Source: a virus
Length of the DNA stretch: 20,399 bases
Reading direction: 5' to 3' (one strand)
IMG/VR virus record: IMGVR_UViG_3300035670_001468
Span: 1 to 20,399 of that record
Position 1 is the first letter of the stretch, and every line of letters begins with the position of its first letter. Positions 1,696 to 16,185 of the stretch are shown here, in pieces. Below the pieces are notes generated by a model. That model was not told the DNA's origin. It did no database searches and worked only from the letters and a program-made list of their open reading frames with translations. Position numbers and translations under genes: made by a program.

Positions 1696-3414
1696 ATGAA
1701 ACCCGACTCCATCCGCGCACAGCTCATAGAACTCTGGCAACCTCGCACGCGCCGTGAGATTTTGGAATTTTGCCAGAATGAAATCTGGATGTCGGAGCGG
1801 TTCACGAATCGCCCAGGGCTTTATGATCCGACGTTTACAAGCTACCTGAAGCCGTGCCACGAATGGTTCGGAGATCCCGAAGTCCGCACAATCTCAGCGC
1901 CGAAAGGCGCCCAAATCGGATTCACGACGTTTCTAGCGAATGCTTTGATGTGGGCAATCTCAGAAGATCCCGGCCCCGCTTTGTTTCTCACGTCCACGTC
2001 GGACAACGCGCAAAGCTGGAGCGAGCGCGAATGGCTGCCGAGGTTGAACGACTGCAAACGCATCGCCGCTCTGATTCCAAAGAACCGGGACGCGATGAAG
2101 AAGATGGAGCAAGCGTTTCTTTCCATGACGGTAAAGCTTTCCGGCGCTCAATCTGAAAACAACCTCGCATCTCGCCCGATTCGTTACCTGCTGAATGACG
2201 AAGTGGACAAATGGCCGCACGGCTTCCTAGGCATTGCAGAGGCTCGCACGCTTAGCTATCGCGGCGTAGATAAGATCGTGCGCGGATCCACTTGCACGAC
2301 CGAGGAAGGGCCAATCTGGATGAGCTGGATCAACAGCACTCAGCACCTTTGGAATGTCGAATGTCCCGTCTGCAAAGCTCCGCAGGTTTTCGACTTTTTC
2401 AAGTCGGTCAAATGGTCAAGCGATCACAAAGACGCCAAAGGCAACTGGAACATCGAAGCCGTTCGCCAGTCGGCCTATGGTGTCTGCATTGTGAACGGGT
2501 GCGAGTTTTCAAGCTCACAGCGAAACGAAATGGTCAGGGCGGGCCAACCAGTCGCAACGAATCCTTTCGCGTCTCCGCAAGACAAAGGCATTCACCTTCC
2601 CTCGCTGCTTTCACCGTTCCTTTCGTTTGGAGACTTGGCCGCGCTTTGGCTACAGAAAAAGAACACGCTGGCGGGCAAGCAGGATTTCTACAACCAGTAT
2701 CTCGGCCTCCCATGGAGCCATGAAGAATACAGCGTGAGCGAAGAGAAAGTCAGAGCCTGCCGCGCCATCGGTGAAAACTACTATCTACTTGGCGAATGCC
2801 CGATTGATCCTGTTGACGTAACGCTAAGCGCAGACGTTGGCGAAAAAGCAACGCACTGGACGGTTGAGGCGACAGGGCATGACGGGCAGTGCTACGTCAT
2901 TGATTACGGAATGGTTCTAGCCGTGGAGGACTTGCTTTCGATCATCCGCAAGGACTACCCGATTAAAGGCAGCGAGAAGCGCGTTAGAATCACATCTGGC
3001 GTAGTTGACTCCGGTTATGCAACGGAGCGCGTCTATCGTGCCTGCGCGAACTCTGGCGGGCGATTGTGGCCTATTAAGGGATCAAGCGCCGAGTTTGGAA
3101 AGCCCGTTGATGCTGCGAGAATCCCGACATGGCCGACGTTGCTTCTCTATACCTACGTCGATTTCTTCCACAAAGTCGCGCTCTACATTGACGCCATCGC
3201 CCGCCGCTCGTCGCCGCTTTGGTGGATTCCCGCGAACGTAGGCAACGACTTCATCGAAGGCCACTGCGGGCAGGAATTGAAATCGAAGCAGACCGCCGCA
3301 CGCTCAATCAAATTCTGGAAGCCGGTCGCAAACGACCACTATGGCGACTGCTCGAAAGGACATCGCATCATCCGCGATGTCCGCTCGCAGTTTTACGGAT
3401 TCGGGAATACCTAA
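1696..3414 (+). CDS. Phage terminase large subunit, GpA family
   Basis: The 572-residue ATPase-nuclease translocates DNA into the prohead and cuts it. The N-terminal ATPase has a deviant Walker A (APKGAQIGFTT, 68-78, without the usual GK[ST]) and a clear Walker B (IRYLLNDEVD, 162-171), followed by a STCTTEEGPIW coupling segment (198-208). A zinc-ribbon-like set C223-C226 and C264-C269 follows, as in GpA relatives. The C-terminal nuclease offers acidic residues at D380 (SADVGEK), D438 (VVDSGYA) and D547/D551 (NDHYGDC). The frame is open upstream to 1423, but ATG at 1696 gives the expected N-terminus and avoids the upstream gene. Length matches the family (about 550-650). Confidence in the family is high. 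Confidence 0.93.
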   Translation: MKPDSIRAQLIELWQPRTRREILEFCQNEIWMSERFTNRPGLYDPTFTSYLKPCHEWFGDPEVRTISAPKGAQIGFTTFLANALMWAISEDPGPALFLTSTSDNAQSWSEREWLPRLNDCKRIAALIPKNRDAMKKMEQAFLSMTVKLSGAQSENNLASRPIRYLLNDEVDKWPHGFLGIAEARTLSYRGVDKIVRGSTCTTEEGPIWMSWINSTQHLWNVECPVCKAPQVFDFFKSVKWSSDHKDAKGNWNIEAVRQSAYGVCIVNGCEFSSSQRNEMVRAGQPVATNPFASPQDKGIHLPSLLSPFLSFGDLAALWLQKKNTLAGKQDFYNQYLGLPWSHEEYSVSEEKVRACRAIGENYYLLGECPIDPVDVTLSADVGEKATHWTVEATGHDGQCYVIDYGMVLAVEDLLSIIRKDYPIKGSEKRVRITSGVVDSGYATERVYRACANSGGRLWPIKGSSAEFGKPVDAARIPTWPTLLLYTYVDFFHKVALYIDAIARRSSPLWWIPANVGNDFIEGHCGQELKSKQTAARSIKFWKPVANDHYGDCSKGHRIIRDVRSQFYGFGNT

Positions 3415-3420
3415 CACACG

Positions 3421-3606
3421 ATGAAAACAAAACACGACAAAGACGAACTATTTGAACGGCTTGTGCTTATGGTAGATGTTTTCGCCTCTTGCATAGAGAC
3501 TGAAACGCTGCCAACTCACGGCAGCCCTTGTCACCGTATGGCAAGGAAAGCTGTAGATGAAAGCGGCATCGCGCCAAAGCGGAAAAGGCGCAAGCTCCCA
3601 AATTAA
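3421..3606 (+). CDS. Small hypothetical protein (61 aa)
   Basis: Six bases after the terminase stop, ATGAAAACA opens a 61-residue frame. The N-terminal half is helical and acidic/hydrophobic (DELFERLVLMVDVFASCI); the C-terminus is strongly basic (APKRKRRKLPN), possibly nucleic-acid binding. The family is not recognised. It is the first gene of the accessory island that separates the terminase from the connector gene. The start context matches its neighbours. Confidence 0.55.
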   Translation: MKTKHDKDELFERLVLMVDVFASCIETETLPTHGSPCHRMARKAVDESGIAPKRKRRKLPN

Positions 3607-3635
3607 GCGCCCACATCGGGCAAACTCAAAACACG

Positions 3636-3887
3636 TTGAAAACCAAAACGAAAAAGCCGGAGCTTGTGCCTGTAGTCACACAACGCCCGTGCGGGCCACC
3701 TGTTGAGCCTCTGACACCCCATCCGGCATTTACCCTGCCATGGATGCACCGCCTATGGGTGCATCTTTACACCGAGCACGCTTTGATCCTTACCCAGGAT
3801 GAGATTTCCCAGATCGTGCGAATTGTGCGTGAGGAGGATAAAAAAATGACTTCGCCATTTCAAAAATATGAAAACAAAAGATACTAA
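3636..3887 (+). CDS. Small hypothetical protein (83 aa, TTG start)
   Basis: The start proposed is TTG at 3636 (TTGAAAACC), chosen because the AAAAC context recurs at five other starts around it; no ATG lies near the frame's beginning. The protein has a basic N-terminus, a Pro-rich middle (residues 18-35), then a helical C-terminal half (LTQDEISQIVRIVREEDKK). No family is recognised. Its last 20 bases overlap the next gene, suggesting coupled translation. Coding status is likely but not certain. Confidence 0.45.
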   Translation: MKTKTKKPELVPVVTQRPCGPPVEPLTPHPAFTLPWMHRLWVHLYTEHALILTQDEISQIVRIVREEDKKMTSPFQKYENKRY

Positions 3888-4116
3888 TTGGTTAGTATGT
3901 GAGGAATGGCGCTGTCGATGGTGCGGCCCCGAATCTGAAGCTCTCCGCGCTCCCGATCCATTTAACGAAGGCGATACGCTCATTGCGTGCCCGAAGTGCC
4001 GCGAGCAAACGCTGCACACCTGCTGCGACGAGCAGGGATGCACAAAGCATGCGACTTGCGGAACGCCAACGCCAGACGGCTACCGCTGGACGTGCGGCAA
4101 TCACAAGCCAGCGTAA
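3868..4116 (+). CDS. Small zinc-ribbon-like protein (82 aa)
   Basis: The 82-residue product has nine cysteines in zinc-ribbon spacing: C16-x2-C19 with C41-x2-C44 (CPKC), then C53-x4-C58, C64 and C76-x2-H79. This suggests two zinc knuckles or one ribbon plus a second site, so nucleic-acid or protein binding is possible. The start is ATGAAAACA at 3868, inside the 3' end of the upstream gene. No exact family is recognised. It is part of the run of small accessory genes after the large terminase and is followed by a promoter at 4139-4167. Confidence 0.6.
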   Translation: MKTKDTNWLVCEEWRCRWCGPESEALRAPDPFNEGDTLIACPKCREQTLHTCCDEQGCTKHATCGTPTPDGYRWTCGNHKPA

Positions 4117-4138
4117 AACAAAAAAGTGCAAAATCCAC

Positions 4139-4167
4139 TTGATGTATCGGCGGAAGTGTGGAAATAT
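4139..4167 (+). promoter_or_regulatory. Sigma70-like promoter candidate
   Basis: TTGATG (4139-4144), a 17-base spacer, and AAATAT (4162-4167). An A-rich tract with AAAAAAGT (4119-4127 region) and AAAATCC lies upstream. The same layout occurs before the methyltransferase gene (7885-7913), including the upstream AAAAAAGT tract and CTTG, which supports both. Transcription would begin near 4174, about 23 bases before ATG 4197. Confidence 0.5.
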
Positions 4168-4190
4168 GGAGTCGCAACGCAACTCCACAC
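4156..4190 (+). repeat. Inverted repeat over the promoter -10 (operator or leader hairpin)
   Basis: GTGTGGA (4156-4162) is perfectly repeated in inverted form as TCCACAC (4184-4190). An alternative hairpin pairs GGAGT (4168-4172) with ACTCC (4182-4186). The left arm overlaps the spacer and first base of the -10 box, and the right arm lies in the predicted leader, so it could bind a regulator or fold in the mRNA. Confidence 0.35.
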
Positions 4191-4196
4191 GACACC

Positions 4197-4490
4197 ATGA
4201 AAAACATCAAATCAATCAAGACAGTTTCGGAATACCTTGCACTTGGCGGCATGGCAATCGGCATGCTGCTTGAGTCACCAGTGAAGGAAAGCGAAAAGGC
4301 GCTCGCGTTCAAAGCGGTCAAATTCAACGCATGCGGCAACCCTTACGATGGCATTGCATGGCTACCAAAGAGCCAGCTTGTCGAAGTGGAAAACGATTTC
4401 TACACGAACGAAGCGCCCGCCAAGATGCACATTTGCCCGACTTGGCTTTACAAGAAAAACTTCGCTGGTGGCGAAATTGAAGTGCTTTAA
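4197..4490 (+). CDS. Hypothetical protein (97 aa)
   Basis: ATG at 4197 (ATGAAAAAC) was chosen over an in-frame GTG at 4158 because 4158 would lie inside the promoter. The product has a short N-terminal helix with a hydrophobic run (YLALGGMAIGMLLES, residues 13-27) and a mixed, aromatic C-terminal part. It has no recognised domain. It has its own promoter, so it may be expressed separately from the structural genes, and the next gene starts two bases after its stop. Confidence 0.6.
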   Translation: MKNIKSIKTVSEYLALGGMAIGMLLESPVKESEKALAFKAVKFNACGNPYDGIAWLPKSQLVEVENDFYTNEAPAKMHICPTWLYKKNFAGGEIEVL

Positions 4491-4492
4491 GT

Positions 4493-4720
4493 ATGCCGCG
4501 AATCCATCAAGACTTTACCGCACAAACTATTAAATGGTTTGTGCGCGGCACTAAACTAGACGGCACTAAATGGGAGAGCGGGCATAAGCACGCAACCCGC
4601 GAAGCCGCTGAATCGGAAATCAGCGAATGGGGGCCAGAGATGGGAACAATGAAGATCATGAAGGAAGTAATAATCCCTTGCCATCCGCCGCAAGTGGTCA
4701 ATTATCCCGCCAGTAAATAG
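4493..4720 (+). CDS. Small hypothetical protein (75 aa)
   Basis: ATG at 4493 follows the upstream stop by two bases. The 75-residue product has an N-terminal strand-rich part (TAQTIKWFVRGTKLDGTKWES) followed by a helix with conserved-looking basic and acidic residues (HATREAAESEISEWG), a layout seen in small single-domain phage proteins. No family is recognised. Its last 40 bases contain the promoter candidate for the structured RNA region, and the stop codon directly abuts the first helix of that region. Confidence 0.55.
   Translation: MPRIHQDFTAQTIKWFVRGTKLDGTKWESGHKHATREAAESEISEWGPEMGTMKIMKEVIIPCHPPQVVNYPASK
4678..4706 (+). promoter_or_regulatory. Promoter candidate for the structured RNA region
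   Basis: TTGCCA (4678-4683), a 17-base spacer, then ATTATC (4701-4706). The preceding GAAGTAATAATCC resembles the AAGT..AAAATCC tract before the promoter at 4139. Transcription would start near 4713, just before the first helix at 4720. The -10 is a poor match, so this is tentative. Confidence 0.35.
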
Positions 4721-4761
4721 GTTTGCTCTGTGCTAGGAGCCATCCGACCCACAGGCAAACC
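4720..4761 (+). repeat. Inverted repeat, helix 1 of the structured region
   Basis: GGTTTGC (4720-4726), one unpaired T, CTGTG (4728-4732) pair perfectly with CACAGGCAAACC (4750-4761). The loop (4733-4749) carries CTAG, which could pair with the CTAG in the loop of the next hairpin (4778-4781); GTGCTAG at 4730-4736 and CTAGCAC at 4778-4784 are fully complementary. Confidence 0.7.
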
Positions 4762-4765
4762 CTCT

Positions 4766-4795
4766 GAGGCCGACTTTCTAGCACGAGTCGGCCTC
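4766..4795 (+). repeat. Inverted repeat, helix 2 of the structured region
   Basis: GAGGCCGACT (4766-4775) and AGTCGGCCTC (4786-4795) form ten Watson-Crick pairs around a ten-base loop. It is followed by TTTGCTTGCCGTTTT. It could act as a weak terminator for upstream genes, but the broken T-run and the many further helices favour a structural element. Confidence 0.7.
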
Positions 4796-4857
4796 TTTGC
4801 TTGCCGTTTTAGAGTCAATACTCGATCCTGAAAAAGTCGGTCACTTGGCGAAGGCAT

Positions 4858-4967
4858 GAGAGCAGAGTTCAGCGGAAAATTGCAGGTCACTCCGACACCA
4901 AAGGACGAACCGAATAGGCCGCACGCAAACCACGAAAGTTGAAGTTTGCCCGCTGAATTCTGCTCTC
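4858..4967 (+). repeat. 18-bp inverted repeat with internal GNRA hairpin
   Basis: GAGAGCAGAGTTCAGCGG (4858-4875) pairs with CCGCTGAATTCTGCTCTC (4950-4967): 17 Watson-Crick pairs plus one G-T at 4867/4958. The 74-base interior carries GCAAAC (4925-4930) pairing with GTTTGC (4944-4949) around an ACGAAAGT hairpin (GAAA loop, 4934-4937). The right arm is separated by one base from the next helix, as in a coaxial stack. Confidence 0.8.
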
Positions 4968-4968
4968 C

Positions 4969-5061
4969 GAAGGTTGAATTGAGCGCGTGGTGTAATGTGG
5001 CACACTCGGCGCATAGTCGAGGAGATGCAGGTTCAAATCCTGCCCGCTCAATTCAGCCTTC
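4969..5061 (+). repeat. 17-bp inverted repeat extending the tRNA-like acceptor stem
   Basis: GAAGGTTGAATTGAGCG (4969-4985) pairs with CGCTCAATTCAGCCTTC (5045-5061): 16 Watson-Crick pairs plus one G-T at 4974/5056. The inner six pairs are the acceptor stem of the tRNA-like element; the helix simply continues 11 pairs beyond the normal tRNA ends. Confidence 0.8.
4980..5051 (+). tRNA. tRNA-like element, anticodon CAT, atypical
   Basis: The element has an acceptor stem of six pairs (4980-4985 with 5045-5050) and one C-C mismatch (4986/5044). The D-arm contains TGGTGTAAT and GG, with a 3-4 bp stem. The anticodon stem is CTCGG (5005-5009) with TCGAG (5017-5021), and the seven-base loop has CAT at 5012-5014. 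A five-base variable region and a perfect T-arm follow: GCAGG, TTCAAAT, CCTGC (5027-5043). CAT would read as Met, or Ile if modified. Two faults are visible: position 33 is G instead of U, and no CCA is encoded. It may be a functional phage tRNA, a decayed one, or a tRNA mimic inside a larger RNA. Confidence 0.6.
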
Positions 5062-5318: not shown

Positions 5319-5948
5319 ATGAACACGAAACTAAAAGCACTGTTTGCCAAAATCTTAGAAAAGGACGCCTTAATGGCTGAAATCATTGAATGGCATGAAG
5401 ACAATTTCAAGATTCCTTCATTGCATCAATTTTACGGGTGCGCTTCAACAGATTTCATCGCTCAATACCTCGGGGCCACTGGTGACAATGATTGGTTATA
5501 TGAAAAGATGTTCATCGGCAAAAGCCCGAAAGGAGAGCGCGAAAGGCAAAAGCATTTTTTAGCCATCGTTGATTCAATTATTGAGCAGGGCGAAATCATC
5601 CGCGAGGAAGATGGGCCATCTGAACAAGTCGCACACGCTCTCGCAATGGAGGCGGCGGCAGATATTTGGAAAAGCGTTCCAAAGTCTGAATGGGTTGAGC
5701 GTTTAGGATATGAAGAAGCGGCAAAAGGGCTGTTTGAATGCGGCGGCAATGTCAGTGAAGATCTTTTAACCCTCGATTGCATCGAATCGTCAATAACCGG
5801 AGAGTCGAACGAATACTTGGCAACCGTTCAATCTGGTAGCCTAGGCGAGCATATCACATGCAGAGGCGAAGGACCGATTGGGGCCGTGGTCCGATGCTTG
5901 GAGGTAATCACGCATCAAAAAAGGTATCGCGCACAAGCTCACGGGTAG
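5319..5948 (+). CDS. Hypothetical acidic protein (209 aa)
   Basis: The ATG at 5319 follows an A-rich, Shine-Dalgarno-free leader. The product is acidic, largely helical and cytoplasmic, with no membrane segment. It includes KMFIGKSPKGERERQKHFLAI (49 onward, continuing as a helix) and a central EEAAKGLFECGGNVSEDLL segment. I do not recognise the family. It is the last gene of the accessory island and lies between the structured RNA and the head genes; base usage looks somewhat more AT-rich than the structural genes, in keeping with an accessory gene. The following gap (5949-5970) holds only the TTGACA motif of the next gene. Confidence 0.65.
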   Translation: MNTKLKALFAKILEKDALMAEIIEWHEDNFKIPSLHQFYGCASTDFIAQYLGATGDNDWLYEKMFIGKSPKGERERQKHFLAIVDSIIEQGEIIREEDGPSEQVAHALAMEAAADIWKSVPKSEWVERLGYEEAAKGLFECGGNVSEDLLTLDCIESSITGESNEYLATVQSGSLGEHITCRGEGPIGAVVRCLEVITHQKRYRAQAHG

Positions 5949-9867: not shown

Positions 9868-11001
9868 ATGGCTAATACTCTTTCCAATCTTATCCCAGAC
9901 GTTTACACCGCTCTGGACATCGTGTCCCGCGAACTCGTCGGCGCTTTGCCCGGCGTTACCCGTGATGCCAACGCCGACCGCATCGCCTCTAACCAGACCA
10001 TCCGTGTTGCGCAGACTCCGACAAACACCACCTCGGCATACACTCCAGCCATGGCAGTGCCTTCCGCAGTCGATCAGACCATTGCCAATGCTTCCCTCAC
10101 CTTGTCGAAAAACAAGTATGCCGCGTTCAGTTGGACCGGCGAGGAAGTTTATGCGATGAATCAAGGCCCCGGCTTTCTCACCATCCGCCAGAACCAAATC
10201 GCCCAGGCTTTCCGCGCTCTGGTCAACGAAATGGAGAACGATGTGTGTGATGCACTGGCCCAGGGCGCTTCCCGCGCTTACGGCACCGCAGGCACCACGC
10301 CATTCGCTTCCACGCTTGCTGATCCCGCCCAGGTTCGCAAGATTCTGGACGACAACGGCGCTCCGCTCTCCGGCCGTTCTTTGGTCATCAACACCACCGC
10401 AGGCGCTGCACTTCGCACACTGGGTCAGTTGACCAAAGCGAACGAAGCTGGAACCGCCATGACGCTGCGTGACGGCGAACTGCTCAACCTTCACGGCTTC
10501 TCTGTCCGTGAGTCTGCGCAGATCAACAACGCAACGGCTGGCACCGGCTCCGGTTACCTTATCAACGAAGCCTCTGGCTACGCAGTCGGCGCAACCTCGC
10601 TGACTCTCGACACTGGCACCGGCACCATCCTCGCGGGTGATGTCATCACCATCGGCTCTCACAAGTATGTCGTGAAAACGGCGCTTGCTGCGAACGTCGT
10701 GGTGATTCAGGAGCCGGGCCTTGTGGCGGCAGTAGCCAACAATGCAGAAGTCACGGTCAACGCTACCAGCGCCCGTAACATCGCATTCAGCTCTGACGCA
10801 ATCGTTCTTGCCACCCGCCTGCCGATCTTCCCGTCCGAAGGCGACATGGCAATCGACAACGAGGTTGTCACCGATCCGCGCACCGGCATCAGCTTCGACC
10901 TCCGCGTCTATCCTGGCGACGGCATGGTGCTTTATCGCATCCACGCTCTCTGGGGCTGGCAGGTTCTCAAGTCCGCACACGCTGCCGTGCTTCTCGGTTA
11001 G
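9868..11001 (+). CDS. Major capsid protein, P22-coat-like
   Basis: The 377-residue product begins MANTLSNLIPDVYTALDIVS with RELVGALPGVTRD after it, the N-arm pattern of P22-type coat proteins. The HK97-fold core is interrupted at about residues 228-300 by a beta-rich insert (GATSLTLDTGTGTILAGD, then ITIGSHKYVV), reminiscent of the P22 coat I-domain. The core resumes at NIAFSSDAIVLATRLP (304-319). The protein is somewhat shorter than P22 gp5 (430). The coding strand has the strongest codon bias of the window (C/G at third positions), fitting high expression. It follows the protease/scaffold gene and ends in a strong terminator. The major capsid call is firm; the exact family is from recall. 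Confidence 0.88.
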   Translation: MANTLSNLIPDVYTALDIVSRELVGALPGVTRDANADRIASNQTIRVAQTPTNTTSAYTPAMAVPSAVDQTIANASLTLSKNKYAAFSWTGEEVYAMNQGPGFLTIRQNQIAQAFRALVNEMENDVCDALAQGASRAYGTAGTTPFASTLADPAQVRKILDDNGAPLSGRSLVINTTAGAALRTLGQLTKANEAGTAMTLRDGELLNLHGFSVRESAQINNATAGTGSGYLINEASGYAVGATSLTLDTGTGTILAGDVITIGSHKYVVKTALAANVVVIQEPGLVAAVANNAEVTVNATSARNIAFSSDAIVLATRLPIFPSEGDMAIDNEVVTDPRTGISFDLRVYPGDGMVLYRIHALWGWQVLKSAHAAVLLG

Positions 11002-12148: not shown

Positions 12149-12988
12149 ATGATTGCAGTCAAAGCAAAGGTTGACGTTGCAAAACTCAAAGCTGCCTTTG
12201 CGACATTTGCAGAAGCCGACAAGAAAAAGATTCTTGATAAAGTAGTCCGCACCGACGCAATGGGCTTCGTGCGCGACATCATCGCAATCACACCGCCCGG
12301 CAGCAACAATAAGCCTATTCGCTCAGGTGGAGACAATGGCGTGTCTGCAATCAAACAGGCGAAGATTAAAATTTACCGCGATCTTGTAGGAGGCAACAAT
12401 AGAGGCGGCATCTTTTTTGTTTTGAATGACGGGCTAACAGCTCAAATTCAAGCAGGTTTAGACGCTGGCCTTGGAAATGACGTCCGGTTATTTGTCACAA
12501 AAGACGGTAGGGTTTTCGGATGTGAACGCGCTTTATTTCGGCCTGACGCATCTATTGAAACAATGTTCACACATCATCAGCGATACTGGAAAAATGGCCG
12601 CATGACACAAGCTGGCGGAAGGACGCGAGACATTGGAAGGTGGAAGTTTGTCGATAAAATGGTCGTCAGTGTGACTGCATTTGAGGCATACAAGAAGTAT
12701 GTTTATGAAAAGATTGGCATTTTGATTGGAGGATGGCACGAAGCGGCGAAAAAGCTGAAGGTGCGGACTCCGCCGATTGTGAAAAAGCACGCATCTGGAA
12801 CCGCTGAAATCATACTTGGCGAAAGTAGCTACGTCGTCAAAATGACAAACCCGGCAAGATACGCTCTTGAGGCAGACGTTGGTAGGCGTGTTGAATGGGT
12901 TTTGAACTCCCGAAAGCGGGCCAATCGAATTGCAAAGCGCATTCAAGTCGAAATCACAGCGGCTCTAAAAAAACGAATCCCTAAATAA
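12149..12988 (+). CDS. Probable tail completion / head-tail joining protein (279 aa)
   Basis: ATG 12149 is preferred over the upstream ATG at 12038 (inside the previous gene) because it is preceded by AAGGGG at 12136-12141. The N-terminus (MIAVKAKVDVAKLKAAF), with helical AEADKKKILDKVVRTDAMGF and an AITPPGSN turn, is similar in layout to HK97 gp10 / lambda Z-type tail completion proteins. These share a helix pair and a strongly basic body; the C-terminus is basic (NSRKRANRIAKRIQVE). At 279 residues it is longer than most members. The role is inferred from layout and from its place before a U-like gene. Confidence 0.5.
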   Translation: MIAVKAKVDVAKLKAAFATFAEADKKKILDKVVRTDAMGFVRDIIAITPPGSNNKPIRSGGDNGVSAIKQAKIKIYRDLVGGNNRGGIFFVLNDGLTAQIQAGLDAGLGNDVRLFVTKDGRVFGCERALFRPDASIETMFTHHQRYWKNGRMTQAGGRTRDIGRWKFVDKMVVSVTAFEAYKKYVYEKIGILIGGWHEAAKKLKVRTPPIVKKHASGTAEIILGESSYVVKMTNPARYALEADVGRRVEWVLNSRKRANRIAKRIQVEITAALKKRIPK

Positions 12989-13457: not shown

Positions 13458-13844
13458 ATGGCAGCAACAATCCTCGGCACCTCCAAGCCTGTTTTCGGCG
13501 TCACTGCGCAGACGGGCATGATCCTACGCACTCAGACGGACGCCTTCACGACTGAGAAGAAAATCATTGTGAATGAGGCAGGCGAAAAGGGCGGCATCGT
13601 TCTTTACGGCGACCAGCGACAAATCACGCTGGAGGCTCTCGTTCCTGCGACATCGGCATTTTCAACGCGCATGGCGGCAAGTGTGACGCTGGCAAACACT
13701 CCTGCGGATTTCTACCGATCCGCCGCCGCTTCCGGCTTTGGTGATGTCATCCTCACCGATGCCAGCCAGACCGGCAGCAATGAGAATGAGCACACCTATA
13801 GCCTAACGCTATGGTCCACGCCGTTCTTCGACTTCGCGGCCTAA
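13458..13844 (+). CDS. Probable major tail tube protein (128 aa)
   Basis: The 128-residue product is almost all beta, neutral, and Thr/Ala/Gly-rich: GVTAQTGMILRTQTDAFTTE (14-33), KKIIVNEAGEKGGIVLYGD, ITLEALVPATSAF, and a closing NENEHTYSLTLWSTPFF. Tail tube proteins have such a beta-sandwich, with internal loop and final strand, and the position between terminator-like and chaperone genes is that of lambda V. It is short compared with lambda gpV (246), which has an extra C-terminal domain. A TTGACA motif precedes it. The function is inferred from position and fold outline. Confidence 0.55.
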   Translation: MAATILGTSKPVFGVTAQTGMILRTQTDAFTTEKKIIVNEAGEKGGIVLYGDQRQITLEALVPATSAFSTRMAASVTLANTPADFYRSAAASGFGDVILTDASQTGSNENEHTYSLTLWSTPFFDFAA

Positions 13845-13869: not shown

Positions 13870-14292
13870 ATGCCCAAAGCTGAGTATTTAACGCAGGCAT
13901 CTCGCCCGCATTCGATCAATGACACGCGCCTTTTCGCGGCACTCGTCACTTTGGGTATTCAACCGGCAGAGGGGCCGCAAATCTACATCGGAGAGACGCT
14001 AGACGGCACGCCGAAACAAACTTGGTATCTTGAGCGTCAAAGCATCTGCGGGCGCTTCAAGACTGCTGAAATGATAGCGGCTTGGAATGACGCAAGGTGG
14101 CATGAGGCAAACCCTGAGCATCCGCTTGCCTATATCCGATGCGCGTTTCAAAACATGGTGTCGTGCATCGACCACATCAAGCAATCAATGCCGATGCAGG
14201 TCATTCGTGGTCGTGGCGGCAAGCTCGGCTTGATAGGGCCGCACGATACAAAGAAGGCAACCGATCACATTCTAAAGACTCTCAAGAGATGA
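13870..14292 (+). CDS. Hypothetical protein in the tail module (140 aa)
   Basis: ATG 13870 sits in CTCCGAAGATATGC, a 14-base string repeated exactly at the start of the tail chaperone gene (14428-14441), which supports both starts. The 140-residue product is soluble, with an N-terminal helical part (NDTRLFAALVTLGIQP), a Trp/Tyr strand region, and a basic C-terminal third (VIRGRGGKLGLIGPHDTKK). I do not recognise it. It could be a chaperone-like or regulatory protein; its stop overlaps the next ATG (ATGA). Confidence 0.55.
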   Translation: MPKAEYLTQASRPHSINDTRLFAALVTLGIQPAEGPQIYIGETLDGTPKQTWYLERQSICGRFKTAEMIAAWNDARWHEANPEHPLAYIRCAFQNMVSCIDHIKQSMPMQVIRGRGGKLGLIGPHDTKKATDHILKTLKR

Positions 14293-14474
14293 TTTATCCG
14301 CGCCTCCAATTCATTGCCGTCGTCGCTTGCCTGATTGCAGGCTTTCATAACCTCACAGGAGGGCTTGCCATGTGTGCAGCCTCGCTTGCCATTTTCGCCG
14401 CTCTAACACTGCGGCAGACAACCCACACTCCGAAGATATGCGCCAACTCTCAATCAACTCCTACGCGCTTCTAA
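14289..14474 (+). CDS. Small two-helix membrane protein (61 aa)
   Basis: ATG 14289 overlaps the upstream TGA (ATGA). Residues 7-21 (QFIAVVACLIAGFHN) and 25-41 (GLAMCAASLAIFAALTL) are hydrophobic and likely span the membrane; the tail is short, polar and basic. The last 37 bases overlap the next gene in another frame. Small membrane proteins of this shape include holins, but location inside the tail genes gives no support for that. It could be spurious; the overlap and two clean segments argue for coding. Confidence 0.4.
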   Translation: MIYPRLQFIAVVACLIAGFHNLTGGLAMCAASLAIFAALTLRQTTHTPKICANSQSTPTRF

Positions 14475-14788
14475 TGCGCCACTGCTGCCCTGGCATCGGG
14501 GCGGACCTAGTAACAGCACATGACCGCATCAAGGCCGCTGCAATGTGGCATTTCGTGCATACGGCAGGAATCGACCAGCTTGAGCGCATGACAGACGAGC
14601 AATTCCGCGATGCAGTCACAGCGCACGGCTACTCGTTACCTCCGCAAGAATTGCCCGCCATCTTTTCAGCCATGACCGCCGAACTCCGCGCCGTCAACGA
14701 CGCCTTTGTTGAGACCGAAAGCGAGGGCCTCCCTTTGGATCAGACGACAGCGACGAGCCAGACTTCCAATCAATCCTCGTCTGGCTAG
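14438..14788 (+). CDS. Tail assembly chaperone, short form (G-like)
   Basis: ATG 14438 lies within the repeated CTCCGAAGATATGC context and is preferred over the frame's earlier ATG at 14372, which overlaps the membrane protein gene. The 116-residue product is helical, with MRQLSINSYALLMRHCCPGI, MTDEQFRDAVTAHGYS and AELRAVNDAFVETESEG, and ends in a Ser/Thr-rich tail. Position just before the tape measure, length and the slippery heptamer near the 3' end match lambda gpG, which binds the tape measure during tail assembly. The family was not confirmed by search. Confidence 0.6.
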   Translation: MRQLSINSYALLMRHCCPGIGADLVTAHDRIKAAAMWHFVHTAGIDQLERMTDEQFRDAVTAHGYSLPPQELPAIFSAMTAELRAVNDAFVETESEGLPLDQTTATSQTSNQSSSG

Positions 14789-14985
14789 GCGTGAAGCACG
14801 GCCACGCGCCGCACGTTGTAGGATGGGAATGGCCGATGGTTATGCTCCTCAAATTTCTGCACGTTGATCTTCGCCAGCAAGGCGTGAAAACCTATAAAGC
14901 CTCCATGCGAAAGCCAATAACGGAAGCCGAAATGCAGCGCAATCTTGCCGCTTTCCGTGCCGAGCTGGACGAGTGGGAGCTTTGA
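14438..14985 (+). CDS. Tail assembly chaperone, frameshifted long form (GT-like)
   Basis: The -1 frame is open from 14713 to the TGA at 14983-14985, with no good start of its own except a GTG at 14791. A -1 slip on CCCTTTG (14731-14737) joins 100 residues of the short form to 82 residues beginning GSDDSDEPDFQSILVWLG, giving about 182 residues. The extension is a coherent helical protein (MVMLLKFLHVDLRQQ, EAEMQRNLAAFRAELDEW), as expected of a T domain that recruits tail tube subunits. The stop overlaps the TTGACA motif of the tape measure gene. The whole arrangement is the classical G/GT arrangement of long-tailed phages. Confidence 0.6.
14731..14737 (+). other. Candidate -1 programmed ribosomal frameshift site (CCCTTTG)
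   Basis: CCCTTTG fits XXXYYYZ and is read C-CCT-TTG in the short chaperone frame (codons at 14732 and 14735), so both tRNAs can re-pair as CCC-TTT one base back. It lies inside the 14713-14788 overlap of the two frames. Confidence 0.6.
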
Positions 14986-15000: not shown

Positions 15001-16185
15001 ATGTCCGCAGTCTCAGTCACTATTGGAGCCGATACATCGCAGTTTGACGCGGCGGTAAAAGGCTTGCCGGAAAAGGTAAACCGGGCGAGTGCTGGAATGG
15101 CAAAGGCTGGCGGCGGCTTTCGCAATCTTGGCATGATGTCTCAGCAAGTGCAAGACATCGCAGTTCAGATGCAAATGGGAACGCGAATGAGCACAATCAT
15201 GGCTCAGCAAGGTTCGCAGATGCTTTCAGTATTTGGTCCGGGCGGCATGATCCTTGGTGGCATTGTCGCAGTCGGCGGTGCTTTGTTTACGATGCGCGAT
15301 GCGGCAAACAAAGCATTTGAGGACATGAAGAACGCAGCGAGAGATTTTAACGTCGAGCTAGAAAAAACGCTCGCTGTTGGATCTCTCGTAGATGTTGCGG
15401 ATGCAATGGGGGGGATTAGTAAACAAATGCGCGAGCTAAATGCAGCGCAGTCGGATTTAACTGGAGCGGCGCAAGGGTCATCTTTGCTTGATATTGCAAA
15501 GGGAGGGTGGATGAATATTAAAGCCGCTATTGGAGCGGGCCCAACTATTGAAGATCGGCAAGCTGAAATTGATCGGCAGCGTCTTGATTTAGCCCAAGGG
15601 CAAGAAGAAACAGCAAAGCGACTCCTGCAAATATCAAGCCAAGAAACCGAGGTGGCGATGCTAAAAGCAAGCGGTCAAAAAGAAGCCGCGATGCAAATGG
15701 AGCGACAGATTAAACACGGGCAAGAGCTGGCTCGCATTCAAGGCTTCGCTATATCACAAGATGCAAAGCGTAAACTAATTGGAGAGGCTGGAATGCGATT
15801 TGCCGCAGAAAACCAGAAGTCGCCAAGTGGCAACATATTATCCCGAACGCTCGACCTATTCTCAAGCAAATTCCAGATGGCCGCTGGTCCGGTAATGCAA
15901 GCCGTAAAGCAGCAGCTAACAGAGCGAGCAGGGCAACTCACAAAGAATGCTGGTGACTTGGGCCGTGCTGCATTTAGTCCGCTTCGTGGCGACCTTGATA
16001 TTAGCGCAGGGCGAGGATCAAACATCAACGCGCTACGATCATCGGCATCAGATCAAATACAACAGATGATGAAGCAAAGCGCACTCTTAAAGAGTCAGGC
16101 CGACAAAATAGACCAAAGCAATTCACTGCTTGCTGATATTGCAGCAAGCGTCAAAGCATTTAACCCTCAATTGTCCTACAACTAA
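15001..16185 (+). CDS. Tail tape measure protein (short)
   Basis: The N-terminus MSAVSVTIGADTSQFDAAVK, with an Ala/Gly-rich helix and MMSQQVQDIAVQMQMGTRMS then TIMAQQGSQMLSVFGPGGM (45-83), is the familiar tape measure pattern. It runs into a hydrophobic segment at 81-98 (GGMILGGIVAVGGALFTM), then long helices rich in Gln, Ala, Lys and Glu to the end. At 394 residues it is short for this family; by the usual rule of about 0.15 nm per residue it implies a tail near 60 nm. The middle and 3' half are more AT-rich and codon-relaxed than the capsid gene. The stop overlaps the next ATG (TAATG). Confidence 0.8.
   Translation: MSAVSVTIGADTSQFDAAVKGLPEKVNRASAGMAKAGGGFRNLGMMSQQVQDIAVQMQMGTRMSTIMAQQGSQMLSVFGPGGMILGGIVAVGGALFTMRDAANKAFEDMKNAARDFNVELEKTLAVGSLVDVADAMGGISKQMRELNAAQSDLTGAAQGSSLLDIAKGGWMNIKAAIGAGPTIEDRQAEIDRQRLDLAQGQEETAKRLLQISSQETEVAMLKASGQKEAAMQMERQIKHGQELARIQGFAISQDAKRKLIGEAGMRFAAENQKSPSGNILSRTLDLFSSKFQMAAGPVMQAVKQQLTERAGQLTKNAGDLGRAAFSPLRGDLDISAGRGSNINALRSSASDQIQQMMKQSALLKSQADKIDQSNSLLADIAASVKAFNPQLSYN

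Follow-up and report, generated by a model that had tools for sequence, protein, structure and literature searches.

A putative phage tail assembly chaperone family with a conserved CCCTTTG heptamer at a probable -1 frameshift site

Programmed -1 ribosomal frameshifting is known from phage tail genes such as G/GT of lambda, whose slip word is GGGAAAG, and E/E' of phage P2, where the shift takes place at T_TTT_TTG. The P2 gene resembles the locus described here in its A-site UUG, which slips to UUU, and in its tail chaperone position. It differs in the P-site slip (Phe in P2, Pro CCU/CCC here) and belongs to a different protein family. For lambda, PMC5009743 describes two overlapping frames, an in-phase X_XXY_YYZ word near the end of the first frame and a -1 extension, all of which recur at our locus, and a chaperone that binds the tape measure protein. 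The same paper notes that long-tailed phages have widely conserved G-T frameshifting even where sequence similarity is low. Our locus departs from lambda in its heptamer, CCCTTTG, in having no detectable sequence relation to any named chaperone family, and in its candidate stimulators, which are lineage-specific hairpins.

In West Nile and Japanese encephalitis viruses the slippery site is C_CCU_UUU (PMC11507841, PMC3835772). There, too, the P-site tRNA steps from CCU to CCC, and UUU is the codon read after the shift. These papers give a first stem of 11 bp, a length also found in one of our relatives (L012). These viruses differ in using eukaryotic ribosomes, in their A-site codon (Phe UUU versus Leu UUG here) and in the genes, which are unrelated. 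For bacteria, PMC4066793 reports a test of all 64 X_XXZ_ZZN heptamers in E. coli, each combined with the IS3 pseudoknot in an artificial lacZ cassette, of which 61 gave a shift. CCCUUUG is one of the tested words and is absent from the three named as inactive; UUG belongs in E. coli to the UUN codons that shift less readily. Full-text literature searches gave no phage or bacterial use of CCCTTTG/CCCUUUG as a slip site among the matches listed.

The locus lies in a viral contig of 20,399 nucleotides (IMG/VR record IMGVR_UViG_3300035670_001468), the whole of which we refer to as the window (Table 1). Direct reading together with the ORF list confirmed the overlap between a short frame and an open -1 frame that the original prediction, made from the letters of the window, had described. 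The frame-0 ATG aligns with the start in relatives L003 and L004. Frame-0 codons at the heptamer are CCT at 14732 and TTG at 14735, giving the phase C_CCT_TTG; the double-slip phase claimed for CCCTTTG at 14731 is thus correct, as is the remark that this word is not the one used by lambda.

Table 1. Features of the chaperone-like locus and its neighbours in the window
Feature	Position	Strand	Details
Small gene, 128 aa, in the slot expected for the major tail (tube) protein	13458..13844	+	assigned by position only
Conserved 140-aa gene between tube-position gene and chaperone-like gene	13870..14292	+	ORF list and gene order of relatives
Frame 0, short product (G-like), 116 aa	14438..14788	+	ATG 14438, stop TAG 14786-14788; sequence and ORF list
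Open -1 frame	14713..14985	+	after TGA 14710-14712, to TGA 14983-14985
Shine-Dalgarno-like 8-mer AAGCGAGG	14719..14726	+	4 bases before heptamer; strongest predicted pairing in the gene; suggestive only
Proposed slip site C_CCT_TTG (tandem -1 slip onto CCC TTT)	14731..14737	+	base 14737 would be read twice
Part of -1 frame that would be used after the slip (T-like)	14737-14985	+	82 codons
Candidate hairpin AGCCAGAC / GTCTGGCT, 8 bp, 15-base loop	14756..14786	+	18 bases after heptamer
GTG, the one credible independent start in the early part of the -1 frame	14791..14793	+	2 bases past frame-0 stop
Tape measure gene, 394 aa, directly downstream	15001..16185	+	PHROG 1538 tape measure, E 3e-12

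Taken together with the evidence below, we consider it highly probable that the locus is a tail assembly chaperone gene of the lambda G/GT type that is expressed via programmed -1 ribosomal frameshifting. Most ribosomes would stay in frame 0 and make the 116-aa helical protein. In a minority, the two tRNAs, Pro on CCU and Leu on UUG, would move back by one base onto CCC UUU, and reading would resume at GGA in the -1 frame to give a predicted fused product of 182 aa, in which ...EGLPL is followed by GSDDSDEPDF... at the junction. The tryptic peptide predicted to span this junction is AVNDAFVETESEGLPLGSDDSDEPDFQSILVWLGVK, and its counterpart in the short form would be AVNDAFVETESEGLPLDQTTATSQTSNQSSSG. 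By analogy with lambda, the short form may coat the tape-measure protein, and the -1 extension may recruit tail-tube subunits.

As a plain word CCCTTTG is not rare: the window has two copies, where 2.58 would be expected. When only in-phase X_XXY_YYZ words whose Y is A or T are counted, 17 genes of the window hold 3 among 5007 in-phase sites. The chance of meeting such a word within the 26-codon overlap is about 3.4%, or 8.4% with any Y; a single sequence is therefore modest evidence, and it is conservation that gives the strength. The only two other words of this kind in the 17 genes are TTTTTTA at 5555 (+), inside a gene whose role is unassigned, and AAAAAAA at 12967 (+), close to the end of the gene at 12152-12988.

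With the frame-0 product alone as the query, one relative was recovered at first, and with the -1 frame alone none. Profile searches then yielded eight relative contigs among public viral contigs. The same eight were reached by three routes, a frame-0 profile, a -1 profile and a DNA pattern containing the heptamer, and a profile of the fused product found seven of them. Since the frame-0 and -1 profiles contain no heptamer, the search itself does not account for its conservation. Together with the window, these nine contigs hold eight distinct gene sequences, as L006 is the same as L005 within the gene and was excluded from the counts of distinct sequences; amino acid identity between the relatives and the window is 43-67%. 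The window, L003 and L004 form clade A, and L005, L007, L009, L012 and L015 clade B. The row set A5 omits L007 and A7 omits L009; the -1 end of L009 is incomplete in the family alignment, and the full end was read from L020. In one further alignment the upstream part of L009 is out of register and did not enter the counts, and in another the L005 and L007 rows end three residues early. Three family members used as tblastn queries retrieved no relative from 50,697 phage records, and a bacterial and archaeal genome collection yielded none either.

All eight distinct sequences have two overlapping frames, the second in the -1 register and reaching well past the first. Metagenomic contigs taken singly are generally error-prone, and one gene could in principle have been split into two frames by a sequencing or assembly error. 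The same split, however, falls at the same word in nine contigs, among relatives down to 43% amino acid identity with the window. On this sequence comparison we would regard an error as refuted for practical purposes, its remaining probability being negligible.

All eight distinct sequences, and with them all nine contigs, carry the heptamer CCCTTTG, each time in the same phase. Conservation among relatives had been suggested as a check on the original prediction, with relatives that lack the heptamer and keep separate starts named as evidence against it; the opposite was found. The position of stops further narrows the region in which the frames can be exchanged. In L003 and L004 there is a -1 stop upstream, so that the -1 frame opens just 12 bases before the heptamer, and in L005/L006, L007, L009, L012 and L015 a frame-0 TAG lies 10 bases after the first base of the heptamer, one codon past it. 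If one mechanism is common to all, the switch would be confined to about 22 bases, and the invariant block inside this bracket is CCCTTTGG. Codon usage at the site was examined as well. Among 47 invariant amino acid columns with degenerate codons, 10 use a single codon in all eight sequences. Every one of these codons ends in C except CCT and TTG; in the window genes both are minority codons (CCT 21% of Pro, TTG 16.5% of Leu). By change-point analysis, substitutions follow the frame-0 codon phase upstream of the site and the -1 phase downstream, with the best offset at -12 and intervals of -20 to +41 (window-L003) and -20 to +24 (window-L004). The interval includes the heptamer and does not pin the switch there.

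A real change of frame could also occur by another route, namely a +2 slip, a shift associated with a stop codon or transcriptional slippage. A +2 and a -1 shift reach the same frame, and frame 0 of clade B ends close to the site. Yet the sole invariant block at the site is an exact in-phase X_XXY_YYZ word, and no long A or T run is present on which the polymerase could slip. A stop-driven shift would put the switch elsewhere in the window, L003 and L004, where the frame-0 stop is 55-61 bases away. We therefore consider these routes very improbable, and favor a tandem -1 slip on the heptamer.

The stretch between the heptamer and the candidate GTG start bears on whether the -1 frame could be a gene of its own. 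The original prediction had pointed out that a GTG start would leave out a coherent -1 stretch. This holds, but the stretch does not begin at DFQSILVWLG as had been stated; it starts earlier and comprises 18 codons, GSDDSDEPDFQSILVWLG. Within it the -1 peptide DDSDEPD is nearly invariant. Over the 18 codons, -1 amino acid identity was above that obtained by random placement of an equal number of changes in five of six pairs (fractions 0.001-0.015), the sixth pair, window-L012, giving 0.067. Only the -1 frame explains the conservation of this stretch, because frame 0 of clade B stops before it. L012 carries GTC in place of GTG, and its -1 frame has no ATG, GTG or TTG anywhere; its -1 part is therefore not made by separate initiation at a standard start.

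These observations have to be weighed against a separate gene that is re-initiated at GTG 14791 by translational coupling after the frame-0 stop. The placement of the GTG would suit such a gene: in the window it follows the frame-0 stop at a distance of 2 bases, and in L003 and L004 the two overlap as GTGA. The codon is retained in seven of the eight sequences. This retention is explained without a start function, as the valine belongs to a conserved G/A-V-x-H/C-G-H motif. In the five clade-B sequences, moreover, the frame-0 stop precedes the codon at the GTG position by 50 bases, L012 has no standard start at all, and the conserved DDSDEPD upstream of the GTG would go untranslated. A separate gene is thus very unlikely, and the comparison supports translation of the -1 frame from the heptamer and not from the GTG. 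In clade A, coupled re-initiation could be a minor rival or an addition that yields an extra short product.

Frameshifting stimulators were sought on both sides of the proposed slip site. PMC5009743 quotes spacings of 5-9 bases and PMC4066793 used 4-10 bases, and clade B agrees with both: its hairpin starts 7 bases after the heptamer and has 8 bp in L005, L007 and L009 and 11 bp in L012 and L015. The z values of the first 50 bases were -2.3 (L005), -2.3 (L007), -2.5 (L009), -4.8 (L012) and -3.2 (L015). All cells of clade-B stem 1 pair across four distinct rows, and 3 of its 8 pairs have changed on both sides. This covariation represents one change between two subclades instead of many independent events, and we take it as supportive, not conclusive. 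A 6-bp pseudoknot between the loop GCCAGA and a downstream TCTGGC is possible in clade B. The pairing is invariant there and broken in L003 and L004, and because it never varies in clade B it provides no evidence for a pseudoknot.

The window branch looks different. A single downstream structure common to all eight sequences was rejected, as clade-B stem 1 pairs in 66% of cells (seven distinct rows) and is broken in all three clade-A rows. Within the first 50 bases of the window, L003 and L004, no convincing structure was seen at the usual spacing of 4-10 bases (z -1.6, -1.8 and +1.2). The candidate hairpin of the window (-12.7 kcal/mol, z -1.6) is weakly supported, with its pairing broken in L003 and L004; L003 has a related hairpin with one mismatch (z -1.8), and L004 has none (z +1.2). 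Upstream of the heptamer, each of the eight sequences has an 8-mer whose Shine-Dalgarno pairing, the strongest there, ranks within the top 0.2-1.5% of its gene. As its spacing varies from 3 to 22 bases, we make no claim for an internal Shine-Dalgarno stimulator. We tentatively raise the idea, which we think could well be wrong, that CCCUUUG stayed fixed while the stimulating RNA was replaced: one branch would use an 8-11 bp hairpin at 7 bases, possibly together with a 6-bp pseudoknot, and the window's branch another structure or none at all.

The assignment to the chaperone class is based on anatomy and position. Neither half had a significant match in PHROGs or Pfam. The frame-0 product is predicted to be all-helical with five helices (pLDDT 77), and its model had no significant match in BFVD, PDB or VIA-align, the best Z being 3.4, which is below a meaningful level for helical proteins. 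The -1 model is itself weak (pLDDT 60) and matched nothing significantly in BFVD. Since G-T frameshifting is conserved despite low similarity, as PMC5009743 states, missing homology is no argument against the class. What supports the GT-type chaperone claim of the original prediction is the place of the gene directly upstream of the tape measure gene, not homology to a named family. The next gene matches tape-measure PHROGs in all five relatives scanned (L003, L007, L016, L017 and L020), and in L004 and L005 a tape-measure gene follows by ORF order only. From this context we infer a chaperone function.

The frameshift could also be real and its product not a G/GT-type chaperone but some other protein, a minor tail component or a morphogenesis factor. 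The lack of a homology or fold match to a known chaperone would fit with this, and a second conserved unassigned gene (13870-14292) shares the interval. On the other hand, the usual anatomy of the class (PMC5009743) is just this: a small helical protein that also has a longer -1 version, encoded right before the tape measure gene. We consider a different tail protein unlikely. Accepting the chaperone reading, the sequences would represent a family not described before, whose members are frameshifted tail chaperones of the kind already known from lambda G/GT but use a less usual heptamer.

Further observations were made on the surrounding genes. The tape-measure protein is short (394 aa in the window, 383-496 aa in relatives), which would predict a short tail. 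A gene of 126-128 aa occupies the tube position in the window and several relatives, with no PHROG or Pfam match, and the product of 13870-14292 had no PHROG match and just one sub-threshold, chance-level hit in Pfam. The gap before the chaperone gene is filled by a hydrophobic frame of 61 codons (14289-14474, +; MIYPRLQFIAVVACLIAGFHNLTGGLAMCAASLAIFAAL...) that overlaps the chaperone start; it gave nothing above the cut-off in Pfam and is possibly a small membrane protein. In L003 the interval between the upstream tail genes and the chaperone gene (3209-4667) holds two unrelated genes: one is 2OG-Fe oxygenase-like (Pfam Tet_JBP, E 1.6e-7, below its cut-off) and one is an FkbM-type methyltransferase (E 7.9e-11). 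Short repeat runs resembling CTTTTGCCTCCTGCCTC are present in the spacers flanking the L003 chaperone gene (4985-5000 and 5560-5690), and in L016 a matrixin-like metallopeptidase (4525-4995; Pfam Peptidase_M10, E 1.7e-8) directly precedes the chaperone gene. The terminase of the window (1747-3414) is nearest to that of Akkermansia phage Moulinsart (29% over 97%) and the major head protein (9868-11001) to those of Rhizobium phages (about 49%); because the two are nearest to different phages, ancestry appears mosaic. When phage Moulinsart was inspected for a similar chaperone gene, the two annotated genes before its tape measure proved not to overlap.

The locus extends the phage tail chaperones that use -1 frameshifting by a family that matches neither Pfam nor PHROGs. 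The phenomenon as such was to be expected and is no surprise. Under automatic annotation the gene would be split, or its second half lost. The locus also supplies a natural CCCUUUG slip site that is backed by conservation. If the stimulating RNA was indeed replaced around a fixed heptamer, these sites would be natural variants of the means by which a slip word of Pro and Leu codons reaches sufficient efficiency in bacteria. The two branches, which share one heptamer and differ in their downstream structures, would allow the contribution of the stimulator to be measured directly.
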